64,000 nucleotides of DNA from the NCBI RefSeq assembly GCF_002259705.1, contig NZ_MWWT01000005.1:248001-312000 (forward strand). Direction: 5' to 3'. The stretch's first letter is position 1. Every line of letters begins with the position of its first letter. Positions 68 to 63,777 of the stretch are shown piece by piece. Below the pieces are notes generated by a model that was not told the origin of the DNA, made no database searches, and saw nothing but the letters and a program-made list of their open reading frames with translations. The stretch is from Alloscardovia macacae (GTDB taxonomy: Bacteria; Actinomycetota; Actinomycetes; Actinomycetales; Bifidobacteriaceae). Both the position numbers and the translations under genes were made by a program.

Positions 68-125
68 GCGCCTTCACACGTTTAGTCAGGTTTTAAAACT
101 GTAAAAAAGTTTTATTGCTTAAGCG

Positions 126-36565: not shown

Positions 36566-36658
36566 CACGTTGTGTGTAAATCGTCTCACTTTCTACGAAA
36601 ATCACGCTGAAAAAGAGCTAAAAAGACGGCTTGAGTGAGACGATTTACACACAACGTG
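36566..36658. repeat. Long perfect inverted repeat between convergent genes
   Basis: A 24-bp arm (36566-36589, containing GTTGTGTGTAAATCGTCTCA) is inverted without mismatch at 36635-36658. The 45-nt spacer is A-rich. It begins 14 nt after the P-type ATPase stop. A GGGAAAATTGACAT motif follows at 36687. The layout matches the inverted repeats at 53082 and 63661, though the arm sequence is different. Confidence 0.8.
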
Positions 36659-49695: not shown

Positions 49696-50017
49696 AACCT
49701 ATACGGAACCTATACGTAGGTAAAGAAAAGACGAGGAATCGTCGAGTGGGGACAGAGGAATAATACCTTTCTCTACACCTCCATAGGGAAAAAGGAGTGG
49801 GGACGCTTGTATACCAGGTGTATGCCAGCGTCCCCACATTTATGTGGCGGCCATGGCCATTCCTCCATACTCGGGCCGCCACGCGAGAGGTATGCGGCAC
49901 TGCACTAGGCATAGGAGAGTGCACGATTGGCGCGTTATCGGTGCATTGTCGTAATATGGGAAAAGTTTGTAACGTAACCATTCGGAAGCCCGGGTGGATA
50001 GTACGAGGAGAAACACG
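49696..50017. other. hpf-secA intergenic region with two large hairpins
   Basis: First hairpin: GTGGGGACGCT (49797-49807) with AGCGTCCCCAC (49827-49837), whose inner bases also pair imperfectly, so the stem approaches 19-20 bp. Second hairpin: GTGGCGGCC (49844-49852) with GGCCGCCAC (49874-49882). No T-run follows on the plus strand. A -10-like TAATAT lies near 49,952-49,957. The region could be a terminator pair for hpf or a structured RNA ahead of secA; no known RNA family was recognised. Confidence 0.55.
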
Positions 50018-52957
50018 GTGGCAATTCTTGAAAAAGCTCTGCGTATGGGTGAAGGCGCACAGCTGAGGAAGCTGAAGTCTGTGGCGGATAAGGTGAATGA
50101 TCTTGAAGGGGAGATCAGTGCACTGACCGACGCAGAACTCAAGCAGCAGACTGCGAAGTTTAAGGCTCGCCTCGCAGATGGAGAGAGCCTCGATGGCCTC
50201 ATGCCAGAAGCCTTCGCGACGGTTCGCGAAGCAGCGAAGCGCGTTCTGGGACAGCGTCACTTCGATGTCCAGCTTATGGGCGGTGCAGCACTGCACTGGG
50301 GAAACATCGCGGAAATGCGTACAGGTGAGGGTAAGACTCTGGTAGCGACCCTGCCGAGCTATCTGAATGCATTGACAGGAAAGGGCGTACACGTCGTCAC
50401 GGTGAATGACTACCTGGCGAACTACCAGTCCGAACTCATGGGCCGCGTCTTCCGCGCACTCGATATGAAGGTCGGCTGCATTCTGACAGACCAGAGCCCA
50501 GCAGAACGCCGCAAGCAGTATAACGCGGACATCACGTATGGCACGAATAACGAGTTCGGCTTCGACTATCTGCGCGATAATATGGCGTGGAATAAGGCGG
50601 ATCTCGTGCAGCGCGAACATAACTTCGCCATCGTCGATGAGGTGGACTCCATTCTCATCGATGAAGCGCGTACTCCTCTTATCATCTCCGGTCCAGCAGA
50701 AGGCGATGTTACTCGCTGGTATCGCGAGTTCGCGAAGCTCGTCCTGAAGCTGAACCGTGACGAGGATTACGATGTCAATGAAAAGAAGAAAGTCATCGGT
50801 ATCCTGGACTCGGGTATCGCGAAGATAGAAGACTTCCTCGGCATCGATAACCTGTACGAGCCAGCAAACACGGCTCTCATCGGTTACCTGAATAATGCTA
50901 TCCGCGCGAAGGAACTCTTCGTGCGTGATAAGGACTACGTGGTTCAGGGCGGCGAAGTTCTCATCGTAGATGAACACACAGGTCGTATGCTGCACGGACG
51001 TCGCTATAACGAAGGTCTGCACCAGGCCATCGAAGCGAAGGAAGGCGTGGAAGTTCAGGCAGAAAACCAGACTTTCGCTACCATCACCCTGCAGAACTAC
51101 TTCCGCATGTATGATAAGCTCGCGGGCATGACCGGTACTGCAGAGACCGAAGCAGCTGAGTTCATGAACACGTATAAGCTGGGCGTTATCCCTATTCCTA
51201 CGAATCGCCCTATGATTCGTAAGGACCAGGATGACCTCATCTTCCGCACGCAGAAGGAAAAGCTCGTCGCCATCGTGAAGGATGTGGCTGCGCGTCATGA
51301 GAAGGGCCAGCCAGTCCTGCTGGGTACCTCCTCCGTGGAATCTTCTGAGCTCGTCTCTACTCTGCTTGATCAGGTGAACATCCCTCACCGCGTGCTGAAT
51401 GCAAAGCATAATGAAGCGGAAGCTGCAGTGGTGGCTGTGGCAGGCCGTAAGGGTGCTGTGACCGTGGCTACGAACATGGCTGGTCGTGGTACGGATATCA
51501 TGCTCGGTGGTAACGTCGAGTTCCTCGCAGACCAAAAGCTGAAGGCTCAGGGGTACTCCCCAGAAGACACGCCTGAAGACTATGAGCGCCTCTGGCCAGC
51601 TGCTCTCGACGAGATGAAGCAGCAGGCGAAGGATGAGCATGAAGAGGTGAAGGAGCTCGGTGGCCTGTATGTGCTCGGCACGGAGCGTCACGAATCTCGC
51701 CGTATCGATAATCAGCTGCGCGGTCGTTCCGGCCGTCAGGGTGACCCAGGTGAGTCTCGCTTCTACCTGTCCCTCGAAGATAACCTCATGCGCCTGTTTA
51801 ACACGCAGCTCGTCGCTCGTGTTATGGCTACCGGTATGCCGGAAGGCGAGCCTATCGAGGCGAAGAGCGTCTCGAATGGCGTACGCACGGCTCAGAAGTC
51901 TGTCGAGTCCCGTAACTTCGAGACCCGTAAGAACGTTCTGAAGTATGATGACGTTATGAATAAGCAGCGTACTGTCGTGTATGCTGAGCGTCAGGCTGTG
52001 CTGAAGGGTGCGGACATCTCCGCCGACGTTCAGAAGTTCATTCATGATGTGGTGGACTCCTACGTGCAGGGTGCCACGAAGGGCGTGGATCATCCGTCTA
52101 AGTGGGATCTGAAGGATCTGTGGAAGGCTCTGGGCTCCATCGTGACCATCGACTTCGACGAGAAAGCGCTTCTCGAAGAGCTCGGAAAGCTGAAGGGGGA
52201 TAAGGCTCGCACGAAGCTCGTCGAGCAGATTACGAAGCAGCTGAGCGACCTTTATGCTGAGAATGAAGCCATCGTGGGCGCCGAGTCCATGCGTTCCATC
52301 GAGCGTCGTGTGGTTCTGGCTGTGATGGATCGTAAGTGGCGTGAGCACCTCTATGAGATGGACTACCTGAAGGACGGCATCGGCCTGCGCGGTATGGGTC
52401 AGCGTGACCCTCTGGTCGAGTACCAGCGTGAAGGCTACCAGATGTATAACTCGATGGTAGATTCCATTAAGGAAGAGGTCATCCAGCTACTCTTTAACAT
52501 CGACCTGCAGCAGGTGGCACGTGACGTCGAAGAGACACGTGCTGCTCAGGGCGAGGCTGAAGCTGAACCTGAGACTGCAGCGGTGACGTATTCCGCTCCG
52601 TCTGAGGATGAGGCTTCTGATGAGGCTTCTGAAGAGGACGCGGACGCGGATGAGACGTCTGATGATGCTGAAGTTTTGTCCGAATCTACAGAAACGTCCG
52701 AAGATGAGGCTGAAGATGCGCCTGAAGGTGCCTCTGAAGAACAGCCTGCTTCGCATTCGTATGAGGGCCATGTGACGGGTGCTGCGCCTATCAGCCATGC
52801 AGAGGGTAAGGTTCCTGTCAGCAAGCGTCCGAAGAGCGAAGAGCTGCATAGCCCGTGGTCGGATGGTCGTACCTTCCCTGGTACACCGAAGAATGCGCCG
52901 TGCCCATGCGGTTCAGGGCGTAAGTATAAGATGTGCCACGGAAAGAACGAAGAGTAA
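50018..52957 (+). CDS. secA: Preprotein translocase ATPase SecA
   Basis: Drives secretory proteins through SecYEG. 979 residues: Walker [10 protein letters not shown] (about 96-104), [19 protein letters not shown] (about 206-224), [13 protein letters not shown] (about 486), [18 protein letters not shown], the helical scaffold and wing, and a C-terminal linker rich in Glu/Asp/Ser (about 840-930) ending in the SecB/zinc motif [15 protein letters not shown]. It is the major, SecA1-type protein. The start is GTG 50018, with GAGGAG seven bases upstream; a GTG at 49994 is in frame but lacks one. The acidic linker is longer than usual. A hairpin follows the stop. Confidence 0.97.
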
Positions 52958-53027: not shown

Positions 53028-53081
53028 CTGCGTGAACGCGACGTTTCGAGCACTCTGCTTTTTCTGGCCAATTTTCGCATC

Positions 53082-53192
53082 TTGTAGTCACGAATGACCA
53101 GAGGATGCTGGGAGTAGAGGAAGGAAAACCCCAGAATTACGCCATTCTCTAATTCGAACGCGTTCGAGAAAAACGGTCATTTGTGACTACAA
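53082..53192. repeat. Inverted-repeat element, copy upstream of glucokinase
   Basis: TTGTAGTCACGAATGACC (53082-53099) is inverted with one mismatch at GGTCATTTGTGACTACAA (53175-53192). The 75-nt spacer holds the palindrome TCGAACGCGTTCGA. The same arm recurs at 63661-63748 beside the MFS gene. A CCAATTTTCGC motif precedes it (53068). Confidence 0.85.
53154..53167 (+). promoter_or_regulatory. LacI-type palindrome inside the inverted-repeat element
   Basis: TCGAACGCGTTCGA is a perfect 14-bp palindrome with a central CG, the usual form of LacI-family operators. Confidence 0.45.
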
Positions 53193-53286
53193 AAGCCTCC
53201 TTTTCGCATTTTTTACGAGAGTGTGAGAAACGAAAGGGCGCAAGCACTCTGAGCACACCCGACACGTCGCCCCTACGATATATCAT

Positions 53287-53433: not shown

Positions 53434-54405
53434 ATGCATTCTTTAGCAGTAGACATCGGCGGAACGAAGATCGCTGTAGGCGTGTGCGACGATGATGACG
53501 TCATCGTACGCCAGTGGACTGTTCCTACGCCTGCGGAAGCCGAGCTCATCGACGAGCATATCGCGAACCTGTTTAAGGAAGCGTCGAAGTCGTTTGATGA
53601 TATCGTAGCCATCGGCATTTCCGCAGCGGGTAATGTGAAGGAAGACCGCCGTACTATCAGCTTTGCGGCGAATATCAGCGGCTGGGTGAACTATCCTCTG
53701 GCAGACCGCATCGAAGCGCTCATCGACCATAAGGCTCCTGTCGTCGTGGAGAATGACGCAAACTGCGCGGGCTGGGGCGAGTTTGTGCATGGTGCTGGTA
53801 AGGGTCATAAGAATATGGTGGCCCTGACCGTCGGGACAGGTCTAGGCGGCGCTATCGTTATCGATGGTGAGCTCTTCCGTGGCTCATATGGCATGGCCGC
53901 TGAGCTTGGTCACCTTCCTATGGTCTCGGATGGAGACACGTGTGGTTGCGGTCTGCGTGGTTGCGCTGAGCGTTATACCTCGGGTAATGCGCTGGAGCGT
54001 TTCGCGCGTTCTGCTATCCGCCGTCGTCCTCAGGATGCTGCGCGTCTGCTGGAGGCTTGCGGTGGAGATATCGACGAGCTGCGTGGAAAGATGGTCTCGA
54101 AGGCTGCTGAAGAAGGCGACGCTATCAGCCTGTATGCGTTTAATAAGATAGGCGAGTGGCTGGGGCGTACCATGGCGGCTATCTCGGCAGTGCTTGATCC
54201 AGACATTTACGTCATCGGTGGCGGTGTGGTAGCTGTAGGGGACATCCTCATCGACCCTGCTCGCTATAACTATTCGCGCTTCCTGCAGGCGAGCGCTTAC
54301 CGTCCTCATCCTCCTATCGTGGCAGCTACTGCTGGCCAGGATGCTGGTCTGATAGGCGCGGCGAACCTCGCTTTGCGTTTCTATAAGAACGAGTATACGA
54401 AGTAA
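53434..54405 (+). CDS. glk: ROK-family glucokinase
   Basis: Phosphorylates glucose with ATP (or polyphosphate in some actinobacteria). 323 residues: phosphate-binding loop AVDIGGTKIAVGV (about 5-17), catalytic Asp in VVVENDANCAGWGE (about 103-116), the second phosphate loop LTVGTGLGGAIVIDG (about 130), and the zinc site GHLPMVSDGDTCGCGLRGCAERY (key His and CxCGxxGCxE; about 155-177). No DNA-binding domain is present, so it is a kinase and not a ROK repressor. ATG 53434 follows GGAGGA. The 476-nt upstream region holds an inverted-repeat element and operator-like sites, suggesting carbohydrate control. Confidence 0.92.
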   Translation: MHSLAVDIGGTKIAVGVCDDDDVIVRQWTVPTPAEAELIDEHIANLFKEASKSFDDIVAIGISAAGNVKEDRRTISFAANISGWVNYPLADRIEALIDHKAPVVVENDANCAGWGEFVHGAGKGHKNMVALTVGTGLGGAIVIDGELFRGSYGMAAELGHLPMVSDGDTCGCGLRGCAERYTSGNALERFARSAIRRRPQDAARLLEACGGDIDELRGKMVSKAAEEGDAISLYAFNKIGEWLGRTMAAISAVLDPDIYVIGGGVVAVGDILIDPARYNYSRFLQASAYRPHPPIVAATAGQDAGLIGAANLALRFYKNEYTK

Positions 54406-61265: not shown

Positions 61266-63581
61266 ATGGCTGCGAAGAAAACAGCACAAGAAGACTATAA
61301 TGCAGACAGCCTGTCTGTCCTAGAAGGGCTGGATGCTGTCCGCAAGCGTCCGGGCATGTACATAGGAACCACGGACTCACAGGGCTTGATGCACTGCTTG
61401 TGGGAGATCATCGATAACTCTGTGGATGAGGCTCTGGCAGGAGCCTGCACGAAGATTACGGTGACTCTGCATACAGATGGCTCCATCACTGTGGAGGATA
61501 ATGGCCGCGGTATTCCTATCGATAAAGAGCCGAAGACAGGCCTGTCTGGCGTGGAAGTTGTTCTCACGAAGCTCCATGCGGGTGCGAAGTTCGGTAATGC
61601 ATCGTATAACGCTGTGGGTGGCCTGCACGGCGTGGGTTCCTCTGTGGTGAATGCTCTGAGTGAACGCCTTGATGTAGAAGTGGACCGTGATGGGCAGACG
61701 TACCGCATGGAGTTTCATCAGGGGCATCCTGGTGTTTATACGGATGCGGATGCGAGCGAGCCTTCGCCGAAGTCGCCTTTTAAGAAGACTCCGAAGCGTC
61801 GCGCTACCGAGCTGCGCGTGGTAGGCACGTATGATGACGGTCACACGGGTACGCGTATCCGCTACTGGCTAGACCCTGAGATCTTTAACGCGACGGCAGT
61901 GTTCAGCTATGAGCAGCTTGTCGAGCGTGTTCGTCAGACCTCCTTCCTCGTGCCAGGACTCGAGATTCACGTGGTCGATGAGAAGGTGAGCGACGAGCCT
62001 GAGGCTGAGATGCAGGCTGTAGCGCAGCCAGAGGCCGAGCTCGCCGAAGTGGCAGATGAGCCGGCGGAAGAATTGACCTCGGAAGACGACACTGAAGCAG
62101 CGGAAGACGAGGAAGAAAGCACGGCTGCAGAGGAAACGCAGCGCCGTATAGCCGCGCAGAACGCCGCTCAGGAGGCGAAGCGCCGGCAGAGCCATCCGCG
62201 CGAACAGGTCTTCCTGCACGAGGGCGGCATCGTGGACTACGTGGACTTCCTCTCGAAAGGCGAGGATATCTGCGATATCTGGCATATCACCGGCCAGGAC
62301 ACGTACGAGGAGGAAACGCAGGTCGTGACGGCCAGCGGCGACCTCGAAGCGCGTATGATAGAACGCACGTGTGACGTGGACATCGCGCTGCGCTGGGTGA
62401 ACGACTATGAGACGACCATCCGCAGTTTCGTGAACGTGGTGGAGACGCCGGGCGGCGGCATGCACGTGGACGGTTTCCTGAACTCCATTACGAAGCAGGT
62501 GCGCAAAAACGTGGAAGCTTCCGCGCGCAAGTATAAGATCAGCGCGAAAGACTCGTCCATGAAGGTGGAGCGCGACGACGTGACGTCGGGACTCGTGGCC
62601 GTAGTCACGGTACGCATCGCCGAGCCGCAGTTCCAGGGGCAGACGAAAGACGTGCTCGGAACTGCTCCGGTGAAGCCTATCGTCACGAAGATGAGTGACG
62701 CGCAGTTCGGGGAGATGATCTCCGGCTCGAAGCGTGGCTTTAAAGAGCAGTCCGCGCGCGTACTCGAAAAAATCGTGGGCGAGATGCATGCGCGCATCCA
62801 GTCACGCAAGGCGAAAGAAGTCACGCGCCGTAAGAACGCGCTCGAGTCGGCTTCTATGCCGTCGAAACTTTCAGACTGCCAGCCGGGTAATGATGATATC
62901 GCTGAGCTGTTCATCGTGGAGGGTGACTCCGCTCTCGGCACCGCGAAGGCTGCGCGTAACTCCATGTTCCAAGCTCTTCTGCCTATCCGCGGTAAGATCC
63001 TGAACGTGCAGAAGGCGTCCACGGCGCAGATTCTGGCGAATAAGGAATGCTCGTCCATCATCCAGGTGGTGGGAGCGGGTTCGGGGTCTACCTTCGACGT
63101 GAAGCAGGCGCGCTATAACAAGGTGGTCATGATGACCGATGCGGACGTGGATGGCGCGCACATCCGCACGCTGCTGCTGACGCTGTTCTACCGGTACATG
63201 CGTCCGCTCATCGCGGAAGGGCACGTGTATGCTGCGGTTCCGCCGCTGCATCGCATCGCACTGGTTGGGAAGCGCAAGGGGGAGTATATCTACACGTACT
63301 CGGAGGAGGAGCTCGGCGTGCGGCTGGCGAAGCTGCGCGACCAGGGCATCGCGTATAACGAGGACATTCAGCGCTATAAGGGTCTGGGCGAGATGGATGC
63401 GGATCAGCTGGCGGATACGACTATGGATCCGCGCACGCGTATGCTGCGTAGGATTCGACTCGAGGATGCGGCTGAGGCGTCGGAGATCTTCAGCCTGCTC
63501 ATGGGCGATGAGGTGCCGCCGCGTAAGCAGTTTATCATCGATAATGCGGATGATTTCGACCGCTCGAAGATAGACGCGTAA
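61266..63581 (+). CDS. parE: Type IIA topoisomerase subunit B (topoisomerase IV ParE)
   Basis: 771 residues. GHKL ATPase domain (about 1-225): GLDAVRKRPGMYIG, EIIDNSVDEALAG, VEDNGRGIPID, GLHGVGSSVVNAL. TOPRIM domain: IVEGDSALGTAKAARN (about 549-564), LPIRGKILNVQKAS and MTDADVDGAHIRTLL. Position next to sigA, as in other actinobacteria, favours ParE over GyrB, but the two are alike. A large acidic insertion (about 239-308, many Glu/Ala, EEESTAAEETQRR) interrupts the transducer region. The start ATG 61266 has only GAGG at some distance. ParC, its partner, is not in the window. Confidence 0.9.
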   Translation: MAAKKTAQEDYNADSLSVLEGLDAVRKRPGMYIGTTDSQGLMHCLWEIIDNSVDEALAGACTKITVTLHTDGSITVEDNGRGIPIDKEPKTGLSGVEVVLTKLHAGAKFGNASYNAVGGLHGVGSSVVNALSERLDVEVDRDGQTYRMEFHQGHPGVYTDADASEPSPKSPFKKTPKRRATELRVVGTYDDGHTGTRIRYWLDPEIFNATAVFSYEQLVERVRQTSFLVPGLEIHVVDEKVSDEPEAEMQAVAQPEAELAEVADEPAEELTSEDDTEAAEDEEESTAAEETQRRIAAQNAAQEAKRRQSHPREQVFLHEGGIVDYVDFLSKGEDICDIWHITGQDTYEEETQVVTASGDLEARMIERTCDVDIALRWVNDYETTIRSFVNVVETPGGGMHVDGFLNSITKQVRKNVEASARKYKISAKDSSMKVERDDVTSGLVAVVTVRIAEPQFQGQTKDVLGTAPVKPIVTKMSDAQFGEMISGSKRGFKEQSARVLEKIVGEMHARIQSRKAKEVTRRKNALESASMPSKLSDCQPGNDDIAELFIVEGDSALGTAKAARNSMFQALLPIRGKILNVQKASTAQILANKECSSIIQVVGAGSGSTFDVKQARYNKVVMMTDADVDGAHIRTLLLTLFYRYMRPLIAEGHVYAAVPPLHRIALVGKRKGEYIYTYSEEELGVRLAKLRDQGIAYNEDIQRYKGLGEMDADQLADTTMDPRTRMLRRIRLEDAAEASEIFSLLMGDEVPPRKQFIIDNADDFDRSKIDA

Positions 63582-63660
63582 GACGGCGTGTGCGCGGCTC
63601 GGGAGAGTACGCTCGGAGCGTCTTCTCGCGTAATAGGACAATTTTCCCGTTTTCGGGGTG

Positions 63661-63748
63661 TTTGTAGTCACGAATGACCGTTGAGTTTACGACATAAACT
63701 CATAAACGGCTTTATATCGTTAAAACGGCGGTCATTCGTGACTACAAA
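63661..63748. repeat. Inverted-repeat element, copy upstream of the MFS gene
   Basis: TTTGTAGTCACGAATGACCG (63661-63680) is perfectly inverted at 63729-63748. The 48-nt spacer contains GAGTTTA (63683-63689) inverted at TAAACTC (63695-63701). The arm equals that at 53082. An ACAATTTTCCCG motif precedes it (63639). Confidence 0.9.
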
Positions 63749-63777
63749 TCTCCATTCTTCACATTTCCATCACGCGT

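Follow-up and report, generated by a model that had tools for sequence, protein, structure and literature searches.

Intergenic inverted repeats of Alloscardovia macacae as probable members of a dispersed, REPIN/MITE-like family with stepped arm spacing

Two inverted repeats, each placed after the end of a gene in the 64,000-nucleotide stretch of Alloscardovia macacae DNA analysed here (the window), are probably copies of a species-restricted, non-coding and non-autonomous palindromic repeat that spread between genes in the manner of REPINs and MITEs. The A. macacae genome (G000; 1.89 Mb, 95% complete) contains 24 inverted pairs of this family, termed A, and one half-element. The distance between the two arms changes in steps of 10–12 bp, which suggests that the arms are paired on double-stranded DNA. 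This architecture recurs in a second family, B, and a further family, D, has a related one with four sites.

The first-pass annotation had described an inverted pair at 53082–53192 framing 75 nt, and both arms were found there (element 16, Table 1). It had also placed an identical arm, again as an inverted pair, 10.5 kb away; an exact pair does lie at 63662–63747, with 50 nt between its arms (element 17), but the right-hand arm of element 16 carries one mismatch. At up to three mismatches, the arm has four matches in the window, as against a mean of 0.03 in 100 shuffled sequences. Flank conservation, taken over all copies, dies out about 37 bp outside the arm, and element 16 was therefore delimited at about 53045–53229; its strand is the orientation that places its palindrome beside the proximal arm. 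The right end of element 17 (about 63767) is an estimate, since type I copies conserve their distal flank less well. The palindrome, described as LacI-type, is present in element 16, and with as many as two mismatches allowed no other site of this kind occurs in the window (0.39 expected); the second copy lacks it. Rather than an operator of the glucokinase gene glk, it is the mark of a subfamily of A. Nor was the arrangement of a highly expressed gene followed by a carbohydrate gene supported by the other copies, whose neighbours are varied and share no theme. The putative parE gene has a paralogue, 49% identical, at C1:74962.

Table 1. Coordinates of repeat elements and neighbouring genes (window positions unless a locus is named)
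Feature	Position	Strand	Remarks
Family A element 16, type II, arm spacing 93, secA/ROK glucokinase gap	53045–53229	−	Flanks included
Element 16 arm, exact consensus TTGTAGTCACGAATGACC	53082–53099	+	
Element 16 palindrome TCGAACGCGTTCGA	53154–53167		Type II subfamily mark
Element 16 arm, one mismatch, CACAAATG	53175–53192	−	
Family A element 17, type I, arm spacing 68, parE/MFS gap	63625–63767	+	Flanks included; right end estimated
Element 17 arm, exact	63662–63679	+	
Element 17 arm, exact	63730–63747	−	
secA	49994–52957	+	Upstream neighbour of element 16
ROK-family glucokinase	53434–54405	+	Downstream neighbour of element 16; start by eye, listed ORF from 53371
Putative parE	61266–63581	+	Upstream neighbour of element 17
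Family B element, ACGTTGTGTGTAAATCGTCTCACT	36567–36657		Arms 36567–36590 and 36634–36657; A-like architecture, different arm
Family D loci	L125 1135–1352; L124 1114–1332; L132 1114–1333; L037 1721–1929; L066 14147 on		
Inverted repeat C loci	L037 1586–1709 and 6674–6797 (G000:C2)		

Across the genome, with as many as three mismatches allowed, the 18-mer arm is matched 24 times in forward and 24 times in reverse orientation; a reversed-pattern control has no match. Forty-six of these 48 matches form 23 pairs, each a forward match followed by a reverse one, and two are unpaired. That at C16:357382 (L049 2001–2018) belongs to a half-element just upstream of a gene start, with a conserved flank and a diverged arm; that at C20:162438 sits in apparently coding sequence and was taken for a chance match. 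A sequence model of arm and flank (65 positions, built from 44 arms) gave 49 matches in the genome, namely 48 in 24 close pairs and the half-element. The 24th pair (C1:418427–418537), found by the model, has the middle of the arm altered on both sides. The arm is thus not confined to the two window sites, and because 24 inverted pairs are present, a dispersed MITE/REPIN-like family is favoured among the roles first suggested (looping between paired operators, a MITE or a structured RNA). Nothing shows looping between the copies 10.5 kb apart, but within a single element the arms could be looped together, because their spacing is stepwise.

An A element consists of flank, arm, spacer, inverted arm and flank, with the arms better conserved than flanks or spacer. 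The conserved flank contains GAGCACTCTG (for example, 53047–53057), which may resemble half of a CIRCE/HrcA site. Type I spacers open with a GTTGACTT...AAGTCAAC-like sequence and type II spacers with a TCGAACGCGTTCGA-like one; the palindrome is found in eight of the nine type II copies (CGAAC-N2-GTTCG in seven, CGAACGTTCG in one), the types having been assigned by eye and partly by the palindrome itself. Type III comprises elements 9 and 10, near-identical and 4.9 kb apart, whose spacer starts with neither sequence. One of these two was excluded from model-building and from the flank-agreement, target-site and lineage-level spacing tests; both are counted in the list of 24 pairs. Within elements the arms show 28 mismatches, compared with 36.4 on permutation (p = 0.008; 22 elements, 9 and 10 excluded), a procedure that, here and below, leaves shared descent in place. 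Left and right flanks also agree (p = 0.01) over the stretch from −7 to −3 beyond the arms. At −20 to −8, same-element agreement falls below the permuted value (93 versus 115.6), and the flanks are thus not a simple inverted repeat.

The arm spacing of family A, measured start to start, falls at 58 (n = 2), 68 (n = 8), 80–82 (n = 5) and 91–94 bp (n = 9), the two longer classes being common to types I and II; family B occupies classes of 53–54 and 64–65 bp. When pooled, the length steps fit whole helical turns best at 10.65 bp, a fit that a fraction of 0.00075 of random sets reaches, although the pooled intervals were picked after inspection and such p-values are indicative only. Steps within elements alone fit best at 11.4 bp (0.00265 of random sets). 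The A steps of 10, 12 and 12 bp fit 11.6 bp better than 10.5 bp, and for A alone the lineage-level p at the 11.6 bp period is 0.057. Strongly conserved arms, drifting spacers and stepped lengths are the traces expected of two sites that are kept paired on double-stranded DNA. From the steps, which are directly measured, we infer helical phase as their source. A helical-phase constraint acts on short IS50 transposons. A transposase that pairs both ends explains the steps within an element. For Lac repressor looping in Escherichia coli, the part of PMC1762422 drawn on here gives a fitted in vivo helical repeat of 11.60 for spacings of 57.5–155.5 bp, and 11.08 for a second data set in the same table. 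The A elements resemble these short loops in having two sites about 58–94 bp apart with steps near 11–11.6 bp, and differ from them in that no known protein and no regulon is attached to them.

Family B repeats this architecture with another arm. The arm has 29 matches in the genome, and a 20-mer from it has 27 forward and 25 reverse matches there and none in 28 relatives. B pairs were sought as a forward followed by a reverse match, which left a few loose single matches. The loci examined hold 25 pairs, or 24 after one near-duplicate is dropped, spaced at 64 bp (18 of 24), 54 bp (3 of 24) and 53 bp (3 of 24); five further pairs, known from match positions alone, have spacings of 64, 65, 65, 53 and 53 bp. 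In the 64-bp class, a 49-nt stretch of the spacer has an identity between elements of 0.36, against 0.25 when shuffled. The arm occurs in the variants TTGTGTG, TTGTTTG, TTATGTG and TNGGCTG, and both arms of an element mostly carry the same one. Mismatches within elements number 38 of 504, compared with 86.2 on permutation (0 of 5,000 permutations as low), a contrast that is inflated by sublineage descent, although any one variant must still have arisen by changes in the left and the right arm alike. At a single position of the arm, either G or A, co-variation is not clear (8 mismatches versus 11.8 expected). Some B elements also form arrays of three with a period of 135–136 bp (L128 868–1224 and L129 937–1292, G000:C17), in which the units differ in arms and spacers despite the constant period.

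In family D a 21-bp site, CACTTTAGGGCTAATCCCGAC, occurs four times per element, twice forward and then twice reverse (F F R R). The layout F-42/43-F-113..115-R-42-R was found at five of the examined loci (396,558 bases, with overlaps) and at none in the control; 32 replaces 42 once, and the last site is undetected once (L066). In three of the five loci a B element adjoins D, at 46, 46 and 67 bp. Single D sites beyond the four-site pattern were seen at L125 958 and L037 6809. An inverted repeat, C (GAGGAGTGAGCTTTT..., with arms GAGGAGTGAGC...), is present at two near-identical loci and is possibly a further repeat family. An inner core, TTGGCTTAAATGCTGGGTTTT, has five matches (control, 0); four belong to A, C or D elements, the near-identical C pair accounting for two of them, and the fifth (C17:35108) is without such arms nearby. 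A de novo scan of the window for inverted pairs returned three, all A or B; the same kind of scan over 400 kb of one congener (G004) returned five, two of them overlapping, and no dispersed family.

The relatives point to a restricted distribution. No A pair was found with the 18-mer in 58 relatives (4 congeners and 54 more distant genomes, one genome per species). Single matches there were scattered, mostly with three and a few with two mismatches, and the reversed control was similar. The 65-position model gave no congener match with E < 0.4 among the 150 scored, out of 284–318 initial candidates, in each of the four congeners. A looser paired pattern found only two unrelated palindromes in the genome_contigs collection, from which records very near this genome are possibly excluded. 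IMG/VR held no exact 18-mer match, and element 16 gave no blastn match among plasmids.

The first-pass annotation had asked for target-site duplications and for empty sites in related strains, the latter as decisive for a mobile element. The secA–glk spacer, 476 bp here, measures 208, 155, 290 and 190 bp and is free of the element in the four congeners (G001–G004); the rho–chorismate mutase spacer, 354 bp here, measures 162, 75, 109 and 110 bp in the same genomes, again without the element. The parE–MFS spacer (278 bp) compares with element-free spacers of 124, 195 and 288 bp in G001, G002 and G004; the gene pair is not syntenic in G003, and the spacer of G004 is equally long without an element. 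These element-free and usually shorter spacers fit an insertion in this species, although they are not base-exact and the parE–MFS case is mixed. Target-site duplications did not stand out in A or B. One scan covered offsets 0–45 and lengths 2–5, 8 and 9; a second, over offsets 0–41 and lengths 2–10, gave a best z of about 3 in 1,863 tests. Such duplications could have eroded, or the ends of the elements could be misplaced.

Forty proteins, encoded by the open reading frames nearest 23 A pairs, were scanned with Pfam; the families hit are commonplace and diverse, and no gene theme emerged. They include rho/chorismate mutase, aminoacyl-tRNA synthetase/PIF1 helicase, Sir2/PLP enzyme and FTHFS/peptidase C69. 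None of the neighbours with a Pfam hit is a transposase; several have no Pfam or NCBIfam match. By a simple selection of open reading frames, the copies apparently lie in tandem, convergent and divergent spacers, and a terminator or promoter element was therefore rejected as the sole explanation. A truncation of a gene by element 7, suggested by an open reading frame apparently running into its arm, was also dismissed: congener matches in that frame hold stops, and an apparent opposite-strand start is shared, as judged by eye.

Bacterial MITEs and ERIC-type repeats are small, non-coding and intergenic, with terminal inverted repeats and no transposase of their own. The A elements have all of these features and are multi-copy; they differ in the lack of a detected target-site duplication, in having no parent element with the same ends among the sequences found, and in their stepped spacing. 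No autonomous element with family A ends was seen, as all 49 half-arm matches in the genome are accounted for by the 24 close pairs and the half-element. Elements 1 and 2 were considered as the ends of a larger transposon, since they frame a 403-amino-acid open reading frame (P0001, L031 2193–3404). It belongs to a paralogous family, with nine matches in this genome and seven in congener G003, and has no Pfam, NCBIfam or transposase match; with nothing marking it as a transposase, the candidate was set aside.

Both A and B have the inverted conserved arms at a preferred distance and the less conserved spacer that characterize REPINs. The REPINs of Pseudomonas fluorescens SBW25 are REP doublets forming hairpins. 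As described in the part of PMC3116915 drawn on here, they too are inverted pairs of short arms at a set distance (71 and 110 bp there) with a less conserved spacer, and they are extragenic, fall into several groups per genome and form tandem arrays. By contrast, no gene for a REP-associated tyrosine transposase (RAYT) was found here (0 matches to Y1_Tnp, PF01797, in the 95% complete genome; 5 of 14 control genomes positive), clear REP palindromes are not seen in the arms, one family can have several stepped distances, and D has four sites. The GTAG/CGTC REP superfamilies, according to the part of PMC3733652 consulted, are intergenic palindromes, some species-specific and often in opposed pairs, and the CGTC REPs are likewise without a known transposase. 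Of these tags, GTAG is present in the A arm and CGTC lies beside GGG-N5-CCC in the D site; a tag joined to a stem of at least 5 bp was not found, as the palindrome of the A arm (GTCA-CGAA-TGAC) has 3–4 bp, whereas the REP stems in that source have 5–13 or 8–9 bp. The coherent targets and conservation in relatives expected of a LacI regulon were not observed. At the Rfam gathering score, the window matches only RNase P and two tRNAs, with no match in either window copy. Literature listings (title and start of abstract) showed no bifidobacterial or other actinobacterial case among the matches listed, and the 18-mer was not found in the literature searched. Because the Y1 transposase, the REP stem, the target-site duplication and the parent element were not found, we file family A as working like REPINs and MITEs rather than as a proven member of either.

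In the explanation we prefer, a recombinase or transposase would have recognized both arms together, in trans, and set them side by side on double-stranded DNA, so that the spacer changes in length in steps of about one helical turn while drifting in sequence. As transcripts or single strands, the elements might also form long hairpins, whether incidentally or in a secondary role. The mobilizing enzyme was not found, either by the genome-wide Y1_Tnp search or among the Pfam hits of the A neighbours, and the phase-compatible B–B and B–D distances are not explained by transposase synapsis. A protein that loops DNA would explain steps between elements as well as within them. The principal rival is a host DNA-binding protein that binds both arms, draws the intervening DNA into a loop and acts as regulator, insulator or nucleoid organizer at dozens of intergenic places. 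The conserved arms, the helical-turn steps over drifting spacers and the four ordered sites of D speak for it, as do the B-to-D distances, which lie two turns apart, and the A period of 11.6 bp, which is close to one of the two Lac repressor values in the portion of PMC1762422 cited above (11.60 and 11.08). We nevertheless consider it unlikely, given neighbours without a theme, apparent use of all three spacer orientations and absence from the congeners searched; the last of these argues against an old regulon. A broader version, to which we assign a similarly low likelihood, would join A, B and D in a single system of phase-locked paired sites across the genome. Proteins would bind the inverted arms, two in A and B and four in D, on the same helix face and form tight loops in single elements, arrays and B + D composites, with spacers changing by whole turns only.

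We regard the other two rivals as improbable. A structured RNA (terminator, mRNA stabilizer or small RNA) could arise from neighbouring transcripts running through the hairpin. Both window copies have strong predicted hairpins (z = −4.4 and −11.2), they follow gene ends, and arms change together within an element. The folding evidence overall is mixed. With the distal spacer shuffled, the predicted fold is weaker by a mean of 2.0 kcal/mol for the 68-bp class and 2.5–3.2 kcal/mol for type II; exchanging spacers between 68-class elements weakens it by 1.25 (71% of 56 exchanges weaker), but among type II elements such exchanges have no clear effect (53–54% of 72 weaker). RNAalifold placed 15 pairs in the consensus stem, of which only two show two-sided change (element 24 excluded); the stem is conserved by sequence. 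The inner palindromes were not upheld as conserved RNA helices: compensatory change was not consistent by eye, and the exchange and shuffle results are mixed. Copies apparently also occupy divergent promoter regions, the window copies lack an Rfam match, and helical steps in spacing are left unexplained by a hairpin. On the accepted view, RAYTs move REPINs by way of single-stranded DNA, and true REPINs could be present whose RAYT was lost later or is encoded in the 5% that the assembly lacks. The SBW25-like organization (doublets, preferred distances, several groups, tandem arrays) and the GTAG in the A arm favour this proposal; the genome without a Y1_Tnp match and the short arm palindrome oppose it, and helical steps have no reason under a single-strand mechanism.

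Taken with the lack of a detectable Y1 transposase, the helical-turn steps in a genome with at least three multi-copy families point to arm pairing on double-stranded DNA. Stepped distances over drifting spacers make spacer length a test of double-stranded synapsis or looping against hairpin models, and this test is applicable to other repeat families. If the phase-locked system were real, the arm-spacing steps would preserve, as a fossil in the genome, the twist that DNA has in vivo.

Two further observations concern the surroundings of A elements. A region of about 4.9 kb that includes a LacI-type regulator gene is bordered by clusters, each made up of C, one or more D sites and an A element. 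DnaA-box-like sequences (TTWTCCACA) occur at seven sites in the examined loci, six of them inside or next to A elements 1, 9 and 10, the last two being near-identical (L031 2098; L037 1971, 2033, 6881, 6943 and 6998).
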